A stretch of DNA of 64,000 nucleotides from Sporomusa sphaeroides DSM 2875 (GTDB lineage: Bacteria > Bacillota > Negativicutes > Sporomusales > Sporomusaceae): assembly GCF_001941975.2 (NCBI RefSeq), contig NZ_CP146991.1, positions 1,784,524 through 1,848,523 of the forward strand, written 5' to 3'. Numbering within the stretch: the first letter of the stretch is position 1; every line of letters begins with the position of its first letter. The translations under genes were made by a program, and so were the position numbers. Below are positions 10,928-48,315 of this stretch, piece by piece. Under the pieces are notes generated by a model. The model did not search any database. It saw only the letters and a program-made list of their open reading frames with translations, and was not told the DNA's origin.

Positions 10928-11536
10928 ATGACGAAATTAATTATAGTACGCCACGGTCAGACGCTGTGGAATTTGGAACGAAAGTATCAGGGACATAGCG
11001 ATATTGCCTTAACCGATACCGGACTTAAACAAGCTCAAGCGGTAGCAGAGCGCTTAGCTGAAGAAGCCGTTGCGGCGGTTTATGCCAGTGACTTGTCTCG
11101 TGCCTATAAGACAGCTGGATATATTGCGGCTAAACATAATCTGACAGTACATACTGTGCCGGAACTGCGGGAAATAAAGTTTGGCGACTGGGAAGGCCTC
11201 ACTTATGAAGAAATCTCGGTGCGTTGGCCGGGACTATTAGGTAAATTGTGGACAACACCTGATGAACTGCAAATACCTGGCGGTGAAACTTTTCATCAGC
11301 TCAAAGCGCGGGCATATACCGCTATTGAAAAAATTGTAGCCGACCATCCGGACCAAACAGTAGCCGTAGTGGCCCATGGCGGTACTATTGGCACAATTTT
11401 ATGTGCGGTCCTCGATATACACCTAAATCATGTATGGAGTATCAGACAAGATAATACTGCTGTAAATATTATTGAATATTATGATGGCCGGCCGACAATC
11501 ACTTTATTAAATTGTGTCAGCCATTTTAAAAAATAA
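10928..11536 (+). CDS. cobC: Alpha-ribazole phosphatase CobC (histidine phosphatase family)
   Basis: 202-residue phosphoglycerate-mutase-like phosphatase. The catalytic RHG motif is at the N-terminus (LIIVRHGQTLWNLERKYQGH) and the second histidine lies in VAVVAHGGTIGTIL (~150). YASDLSRAYKTAGYIA and LREIKFGDWEGLTYEEI are standard for the branch. In the cobamide pathway CobC removes the 5'-phosphate from alpha-ribazole phosphate or from cobalamin phosphate. It is the last gene of the run, 4 nt after cobD. Sequence alone would allow another phosphatase role, and location is the main argument for CobC. Confidence 0.85.
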   Translation: MTKLIIVRHGQTLWNLERKYQGHSDIALTDTGLKQAQAVAERLAEEAVAAVYASDLSRAYKTAGYIAAKHNLTVHTVPELREIKFGDWEGLTYEEISVRWPGLLGKLWTTPDELQIPGGETFHQLKARAYTAIEKIVADHPDQTVAVVAHGGTIGTILCAVLDIHLNHVWSIRQDNTAVNIIEYYDGRPTITLLNCVSHFKK

Positions 11537-11539
11537 GGC

Positions 11540-11960
11540 TAGTAGTCTGTCAAGTCTAGAGCCAGAGGATTTGAATTACTAAAAAGTCAAATAATTAATA
11601 ACTGCGCGCGCTCAAGGGTGAAATGGCATTAGCCTGATGAAGCCGGCTAATTAAGCTAAAACCCTACTTTTTTGCCTGATTTTCCGCCTTGAGCAAATGC
11701 AGCCGGCATGATAAGATACATAATAACAGAAGACGCTAATGCCTGGGGTATTCGTTAACCTCTTATATGTTCAACCGACTCATTTACTTGGGGAGTTAGA
11801 TGTTACGCAGCTGCCAAGCCTCCTAAGAGTGGAAGGCAAAAACATAACTAGAAAACGCCCACCTGCTGAGAAGCGGGTATGAACATACGAGAGCACGGTA
11901 CCGTGGGCCGACATAATTATTTAACAAGTGGTACTCCTTCGTGAGAAGGAGAATTTTTTT
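11540..11960 (+). ncRNA. Candidate structured non-coding RNA or leader, family unknown
   Basis: No credible protein frame fills 11537-11960, yet the stretch is rich in complementary segments. GCTCAAGG (11610-11617) pairs with CCTTGAGC (11687-11694). GGCATTAGC (11625-11633) pairs perfectly with GCTAATGCC (11735-11743), but the same bases can instead form a local hairpin ATTAGCC/GGCTAAT (11628-11634/11645-11651). GCCTCC/GGAAGGC (11818-11837) forms a hairpin. GCCCAC (11857-11862) pairs with GTGGGC (11903-11908) and encloses a GAGA-loop hairpin (11862-11877). A terminator-like hairpin closes the unit at 11934-11960. I do not recognise RNase P, tmRNA, SRP, 6S, T-box or cobalamin riboswitch signatures. 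The 5' end is a guess, and whether it is free-standing or a leader of the SGNH gene is open. Confidence 0.5.
11934..11960 (+). terminator. Terminator-like hairpin that also buries a ribosome binding site
   Basis: CTCCTTC (11934-11940), tetraloop GTGA, GAAGGAG (11945-11951), then AA and seven T. It reads as an intrinsic terminator ending the RNA above. The 3' arm contains AAGGAG, placed nine bases before the ATG at 11961, so it could equally gate translation of the 35-codon frame. Confidence 0.6.
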
Positions 11961-12068
11961 ATGCCTAAACCTATACTCTCGCCATTCCTGGACAAGCTAC
12001 CTTTAAGAAATGGACAGTATGTTGTTGCTGGTCTTACAAAATTCGAAAAGGGAGGTGAGTACTGTTAA
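11961..12068 (+). CDS. Possible 35-residue leader peptide
   Basis: Short frame MPKPILSPFLDKLPLRNGQY continuing to ...FEKGGEYC, stop TAA at 12066-12068. It starts directly after the T-run of the 11934-11960 hairpin, with AAGGAG at optimal spacing. Its last codons encode the strong AAAAGGGAGGTGA ribosome binding site of the next gene, so the two would be translationally coupled. I recognise no family. The good ribosome binding site and position are the only support, and it may not be translated. Confidence 0.3.
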   Translation: MPKPILSPFLDKLPLRNGQYVVAGLTKFEKGGEYC

Positions 12069-12615
12069 TACAATAAAAATAGTCGCCATAGGCGATTCAA
12101 TTACATACGGCTTTCCCTATTTGCCAGAGCAATCGTGGTTTTTCTTAGCTTCTAAAGAATTTGCTATTGAGCATGTCAATAGTGGTATCAACGGGGATAC
12201 AACAACCGGTATGCTGAGCCGCTTTGACCGTGATGCACTTGGGCATAAGCCTTCGCATGTTATCATTATGGGCGGGACTAATGATGCTTACGAGGGTGTT
12301 GAGGTTAGCCAGGTCATTGATAACATTCGAGTTATGGTAAAGCTGGCAGTGGAAAACGGTATTACTCCAATTATTGGTCTGCCGATACCGTGTAATGACT
12401 GGTATGCCGAAACTTTGCTGGGTGAATACCGGGAAGTTATTCAACAATATGCTGTCAATAATAGTACTGTCTATATTGACTTTTATTCAGCTATGATTGA
12501 CGAAAGCAATACTGAAATAAAGTCAGGGCTGCACTGTGACGGCGTACATCCCAGTGAGGCCGGTTACAAGGTTATGGCTGGCGTTGCTATTGAGATACTT
12601 CGAAAAATGTTCTAA
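12055..12615 (+). CDS. SGNH/GDSL hydrolase (esterase or lysophospholipase-like)
   Basis: About 186 residues. Block I is IVAIGDSITYGFPY with the nucleophile Ser. The Gly block is NSGINGDTTTGMLSRF. Block III is VIIMGGTNDAY, and block V is CDGVHPSEAGYKVM with the catalytic Asp and His. The family includes arylesterases and TAP-like lysophospholipases. The substrate cannot be told. No signal peptide is evident, so it is probably cytoplasmic. The start is unclear: GGGAGGTGA (12050-12058) is an excellent ribosome binding site but no ATG, GTG or TTG lies 5-11 nt beyond it. The GTG at 12055 overlaps it, and the ATG at 12010 has no ribosome binding site. It may depend on coupling with the short frame upstream. 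Confidence 0.8.
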   Translation: MSTVNTIKIVAIGDSITYGFPYLPEQSWFFLASKEFAIEHVNSGINGDTTTGMLSRFDRDALGHKPSHVIIMGGTNDAYEGVEVSQVIDNIRVMVKLAVENGITPIIGLPIPCNDWYAETLLGEYREVIQQYAVNNSTVYIDFYSAMIDESNTEIKSGLHCDGVHPSEAGYKVMAGVAIEILRKMF

Positions 12616-12676: not shown

Positions 12677-12706
12677 TTGCCAAAGTATACCTAGCTGTGA
12701 TATAAT
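12677..12706 (+). promoter_or_regulatory. Probable sigma-A promoter of the cyclophilin gene
   Basis: TTGCCA (12677-12682), 18-bp spacer, TATAAT (12701-12706), with the TTG start of the cyclophilin gene 32 nt downstream. The -10 is a perfect match and the -35 a 4/6 match. Confidence 0.5.
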
Positions 12707-48238: not shown

Positions 48239-48315
48239 TGGTCGGGGCGACAGGATTCGAACCTGCGGCCTCTTAGTCCCGAACCAAGCGCGCTACCAAA
48301 CTGCGCCACGCCCCG
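48239..48315 (-). tRNA. tRNA-Pro (anticodon CGG), CCA encoded
   Basis: The minus strand reads CGGGGCG (acceptor 5'), D-arm GGCGCAGTTTGGTAGCGC, anticodon stem CTTGG-TTCGGGA-CTAAG with anticodon CGG, variable AGGCC, T-arm GCAGGTTCGAATCCTGT, CGCCCCG, discriminator A and encoded CCA. It is 77 nt long. It decodes CCG proline codons. No other tRNA is nearby. Confidence 0.95.

Follow-up and report, generated by a model that had tools for sequence, protein, structure and literature searches.

Identification of a second 6S RNA gene

The stretch at 11540–11960 of the window (the whole 64-kb stretch of Sporomusa sphaeroides DNA that was analysed, to which all positions refer) almost certainly contains the gene of a second, diverged 6S RNA with its own predicted promoter and terminator. 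At the Rfam gathering thresholds (release 15), two matches were found in the window: a 6S RNA (RF00013, 6S/SsrS) at 11737–11913 on the forward strand and a tRNA at 48242–48315 on the reverse strand. The 6S match scored 66.7 bits, above the gathering score of 46.4 (E 5.5e-11), and covered the entire model, positions 1–187 of 187. A permissive Rfam search of 11480–12100 returned it again, together with three other matches far under their own gathering scores. The preliminary description, made from the letters of the DNA, had recognised no known RNA family here; the strong match to RF00013, a kind of result which that description had itself named as speaking against it, overturns this. Its suggestion of a free small RNA fits, in that a gene with such a predicted transcript and its own terminator is encoded here. 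A candidate new RNA is thereby struck off the list, and its function is assigned by family.

The S. sphaeroides genome has two 6S copies about 397 kb apart, one with 91.7 bits at C1:2193027–2193204 and the window copy at C1:1796260–1796436. Because the better-scoring 6S RNA lies elsewhere in the genome, the window copy is the second paralogue, and its lower score (66.7 vs 91.7 bits) marks it as diverged. We call it 6S-2; this label is our own and implies no orthology to bsrB. Like 6S RNA (SsrS, RF00013) in general, the window RNA has a full-length model match, a rod fold with a central bubble, a terminator and the marks of a product RNA, and no defining feature that we tested was missed, although it is a low-scoring, diverged paralogue. 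It is a well-supported, ordinary member of a known RNA family, whose paralogue history is mildly interesting.

The coordinates 11540–11960 span three separate elements: a single repeat arm, a promoter region, and the 6S gene with its terminator (Table 1). No ORF of 60 aa or more is present there, in agreement with the earlier statement that the stretch holds no protein gene. The arm belongs to an interspersed repeat with further matches in the same genome, and at 3 of the 7 further places (L036, L041 and L042 in the set L036–L042) it is followed by its near-complement. The proposal of a mobile-element remnant fits in so far as part of a repeat is present; the remainder is promoter region and 6S gene.

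Table 1. Positions of the features in and around the 6S-2 gene
Feature	Position	Strand	Remarks
One arm of interspersed repeat, outside the 6S gene	about 11538–11575		seven further matches of 30–40 bases in the same genome
Moderately conserved region before the 6S-2 promoter	11583–11688	+	aligned in 10 loci; nearly fixed distance to 6S
Box AGTCAAA in upstream region	11585–11591	+	
Box TCAAGG in upstream region	11612–11617	+	
Box TTTTTTGCCT in upstream region	11668–11677	+	
Predicted sigma-A promoter, TTGAGC-17-TAAGAT	11689–11717	+	extended TG at 11709–11710; start near 11725; read by eye
Predicted 6S-2 transcript including terminator, ~230 nt	11725–11958	+	putative ends
6S RNA core (RF00013)	11737–11913	+	66.7 bits; fold with paired changes
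Closing stem, 5′ strand	11741–11755	+	partner 11895–11908; 98.6% of cells paired, 11 loci
Inner helix beside central bubble, 5′ strand	11760–11773	+	partner 11880–11893; 97.9% of cells paired, 11 loci
Predicted product-RNA template, 5′-GUCGGUUGAACAUA	11766–11779	+	start opposite C11779; placed by eye
Small hairpin, 3′ side of central bubble	11861–11878	+	93.3% of cells paired, 11 loci; no two-sided changes
Intrinsic terminator: 7-bp stem, GTGA loop, T-run	11934–11960	+	from scan; hairpin proper 11934–11951

Fold and covariation of the 6S rod

RNAalifold proposes a 6S rod for alignment A2, which holds 11 loci of 6S-2. In this rod 96.4% of the 614 pair cells are paired, and 0 of 500 shuffles were as high. 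Two-sided changes occur in 9 of its 56 pairs (0/500 shuffles); four of these nine are in the terminator helix (helix 8), where they affect 4 of the 6 pairs. There are also 31 further pair types, a value reached by 2 of 500 shuffles. Slid versions of the rod pair just 40.7–50.0% of cells, a comparison in which the rod is favoured because it was derived from the same A2 alignment on which it was counted.

Excess structure by folding energy is clear in the 3′ half only. The predicted transcript gave a z of −2.61 (1 of 200 shuffles as good) and 11728–11960 gave −2.14 (5/200), while the 5′ half, 11537–11736, was at chance level with a z of 0.06 (100/200); the whole stretch had a z of −1.53, with 6 of 100 shuffles as good. 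The claim of a structured stretch of about 420 nt is clearly supported for its 3′ half only. The hairpin CTCCTTC-GTGA-GAAGGAG with its T-run, followed by the ATG at 11961, was confirmed as described.

Promoter, product RNA and proposed working

The TTGA, TG and TA..AT positions of the predicted 6S-2 promoter are invariant in 10 loci. It matches the consensus at 8 of 12 positions, which is under the limit of the program scan, and for this reason it is absent from the scan's list. In the 11 loci the columns of the predicted template vary at two positions only, one with G or T and the other with C or T. According to section 12 of PMC8414754, an A preceding the start and GG at positions 4/5 or 5/6 are common to product RNAs, and AA at 9/10 is added there for B. 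subtilis 6S-1 and the lactic acid bacteria. These marks are present in the predicted product RNA GUCGGUUGAACAUA with the A before it; the test is a weak one, since the start position was placed so as to fit.

6S RNAs mimic an open promoter and bind the active site of the polymerase that carries the housekeeping sigma factor, and copying of a short product RNA by this polymerase brings about their release, as described in passages of PMC8876501. In the window, a predicted sigma-A promoter of the extended −10 type at 11689–11717 would start a transcript of about 230 nt ending at the hairpin at 11934–11958, and its core at 11737–11913 folds as a 6S rod with closing stem, central bubble and apical arm. 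By analogy with the 6S RNAs studied so far, 6S-2 would mimic an open promoter, fill the active site of the sigma-A polymerase and reshape housekeeping transcription. Once nucleotides are available again, the polymerase would copy the short product RNA from 6S-2, the product RNA would refold, and 6S-2 would be released. Family membership, the fold with its paired changes, paralogy, synteny and the terminator are shown by the analysis, and the promoter, the transcript ends and the product RNA are sequence-based predictions. The expression of 6S-2, its binding to the polymerase and a timing that might differ from that of the main copy we infer only by this analogy.

B. subtilis likewise has two 6S genes, 6S-1 and 6S-2 (bsrA and bsrB), at separate places in its genome. 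According to the part of PMC11077062 that treats them, both are enriched with sigma-A and differ in their expression profile; Sporomusa 6S-2 may act in the same way, with sigma-A association and a profile of its own. A small hairpin in the 3′ part of the central bubble, as in the window RNA, is described for B. subtilis 6S-1 in a passage of PMC8876501. The main copy of the window's genome would yield the product RNA GUUGGCUCAAAACA (by eye from L001), 11 of whose 14 letters are as in GUUCGGUCAAAACU of B. subtilis 6S-1, given in the same passages of PMC8876501. Other Firmicutes with two 6S copies are named in a passage of PMC8414754. The Bacillus cereus group has two 6S paralogues per genome, as here, but these form one operon (both points from passages of PMC7726162), whereas the copies of the window genome are about 397 kb apart. 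Among open-licence papers we found no literature on 6S RNA in Sporomusa, and in those that pair 6S RNA with Negativicutes the passages concerned do not treat the 6S RNA of Negativicutes.

The region upstream of 6S-2

A block that runs from AAGTCAAA as far as the promoter is common to ten 6S-2 loci. These loci make up alignments A1 and A3, which leave out L023 (G002), whose upstream part is unalignable, and L047, a MAG locus in which by eye only the promoter is kept and which is also absent from A2. The GTCAAA of the block lies 149–151 nt before the 6S model start, even where the phosphatase gene is farther off or not found. Identity per 20-nt block ahead of 6S-2 is 0.55–0.80; in the same loci the −80 to −41 stretch ahead of the cyclophilin gene gives 0.69–0.70, and ahead of 6S-1 identity is 0.70–0.94 at −160 to −21, which by eye is partly the end of a coding gene. 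Conservation upstream of 6S-2 does not appear unusual by these comparisons. The region 11583–11724 probably reads as promoter and operator DNA, and 11583–11688 as regulatory DNA.

Sporomusa 6S-2 may possess a dedicated control region of about 150 bp read by a putative regulator, with two paralogues that split before the families of the order being switched apart; we offer this tentatively and think it rather unlikely. It rests on the half-sites AGTCAAA and TCAAGG, which occur in both orientations with nearly fixed spacing. The pattern AGTCAAA-N8-14-TTTTTGACT was found in 4 of 9 genus genomes (three at the 6S-2 site, one elsewhere) and TTTTGACT-NN-TTTT-N3-5-CTTGA in 7 of 9, always at the 6S-2 site; both are absent from the window genome. 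AAGTCAAA-N18-32-CAAGG has five places in its own genome including that of the window, against one for the backward control, and AGTCAAA alone occurs 14 times in the window, where 8.23 are expected. On these scans of the genus genomes and the window a regulon for the upstream boxes was rejected, and no regulator could be named.

A sequence-only model of the upstream part, R1, matched strongly once in each of its 10 source genomes, as its construction dictates, and weakly once in each of 3 of the 18 other genomes of the order (E 0.0099, 0.0449 and 0.0912). The stretches around these three places contain tRNA genes and no 6S. Two of them, L091 and L092 (E 0.0099 and 0.0449), belong to another family and lie directly ahead of tRNA clusters; these matches perhaps reflect merely a shared type of strong stable-RNA promoter.

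That the conserved part before 6S is more than promoter DNA, being itself a structured RNA or a piece of a longer 6S precursor, is improbable in our view. Ten loci do align across it, and a structure whose dyad occupies A1 columns 69–82/90–103 has 89.4% of 199 cells paired (0/500 shuffles; slid versions 29.6–61.0%), two-sided changes in 3 of 20 pairs (5/500 shuffles) and a covariation score reached by 0 of 500 shuffles. However, the counts were made on the very alignment that yielded the structure. Its RNAalifold energy is just −6.73 kcal/mol, the covariation term being unfavourable at +0.44, and its further pair types are no more numerous than in shuffles (250/500). A DNA dyad bound by a protein would produce equal paired changes. 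The window's own upstream stretch folds at the chance level given above, and a promoter with invariant positions occupies the 3′ end of this part. It has no Rfam match above threshold, and a known RNA was rejected for it, as the other matches of the permissive search were all far under their gathering scores.

Distribution and history of the 6S paralogues

Across the class, 242 of 250 genomes gave a 6S RNA match. Two to four 6S RNAs per genome were found in 24 of the 28 members of the order; outside the order, more than one copy was counted by hand from the table in at least 23 of 222 class genomes, a lower bound because the class search used stricter filters. All 12 family genomes contain 6S RNA, with 30 copies altogether. 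The aligned family copies are of three kinds: the main copy in 12 genomes, 6S-2 in 11 of 12, and 6S-3 at seven loci of six genomes. The sole family genome in which no 6S-2 was found, G001, is 72% complete. A pattern scan of named GTDB contigs gave eight stretches, of which five belong to Sporomusa records and the other three to MAGs.

A tree was built from 60 6S copies that come from 27 of the order's genomes; it leaves out one 48-bit copy of G023 without a locus, genome G024 and L047. Under midpoint rooting it separated a main group from a 6S-2/6S-3 group with a support of 100. This indicates that the two 6S groups of the order separated early. Multiple 6S RNAs in two early groups, kept by 24 of 28 genomes, offer a natural system in which to ask why more than one polymerase-holding RNA is kept.

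It is very unlikely that 6S-2 is a decayed paralogue which has lost its function, even though it scores under the main copy and its promoter falls short of the consensus. The 6S-2 core is 76–88% identical to the nine other loci of alignment A3, with paired changes, and decay would not keep pairs; 6S-2 is also kept by 11 of the 12 family genomes.

6S-3 sits behind a tRNA cluster at 5 of its 7 loci (L018, L027, L029, L030 and L019), and at four of the seven its model start lies 2–5 nt after a tRNA-Cys gene. In L027 a perfect TTGACA-17-TATAAT promoter stands ahead of the tRNA-Cys gene that precedes 6S-3, which suggests a joint tRNA-6S transcript. No tRNA was found in the fetched stretches of the 6S-3 loci L021 and L028 or of 15 further second-group 6S loci.

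Neighbouring genes

Six window proteins were searched by tblastn (E 1e-3) against 19 loci, which represent 12 distinct places, seven being second copies of the same place. The cyclophilin gene follows 6S-2 at 11 of the 12 distinct loci and was not found in L047. The histidine phosphatase gene is present at 9 of 12; in S. ovata L044 it is several kb off. For the SGNH protein, and likewise for the 35-aa frame at 11961, a match came from 1 of 12, the window's own locus. Pfam names the neighbours as aminotransferase, histidine phosphatase, GDSL lipase, cyclophilin and CoA-binding, and gave no match for the 35-aa frame.

The preliminary description had also suggested that mutually exclusive pairings form a switch in this stretch. 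The words it quoted are placed correctly, with GGCATTAGC at 11625–11633, GGCTAAT at 11645–11651 and GCTAATGCC at 11735–11743, and the pairings are present in the window sequence, but they are not conserved across the 10 loci of alignment A3. Helix 11625–11633/11735–11743 has 67.4% of 89 cells paired (459/500 shuffles as high; slid versions 28.1–50.6%), and outside the window's sequence 4 to 7 of its 9 pairs are kept. For helix 11628–11634/11645–11651 the value is 40.6% of 69 cells (350/500 shuffles as high; slid versions 29.0–46.4%, at least one of them higher), and 1 to 3 of 7 pairs are kept outside the window's sequence. GCTAATGCC runs into the 5′ end of the 6S core, and its GCC enters the closing stem. 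What was taken for the buried ribosome binding site of the ATG at 11961 is the terminator stem ahead of the 35-aa frame, a frame found, among the 12 distinct loci, at the window's own only.

The idea that the stretch is a riboswitch-like leader, with such pairings controlling the SGNH hydrolase gene, has a negligible probability and was rejected by synteny: the pairings can form in the window sequence alone and the last stem covers the GGAG before the ATG at 11961, but the SGNH gene and the 35-aa frame are present at only one of the 12 distinct loci while the RNA is present in all 12, the pairings are unconserved, and the 6S match is full-length. The GDSL/SGNH hydrolase gene itself, at 12010–12615, lies between 6S-2 and the cyclophilin gene at this one locus of the 12. 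A strong promoter-like site at 12677–12706, TTGCCA-18-TATAAT with a TG, is kept before the cyclophilin gene in 10 aligned loci.
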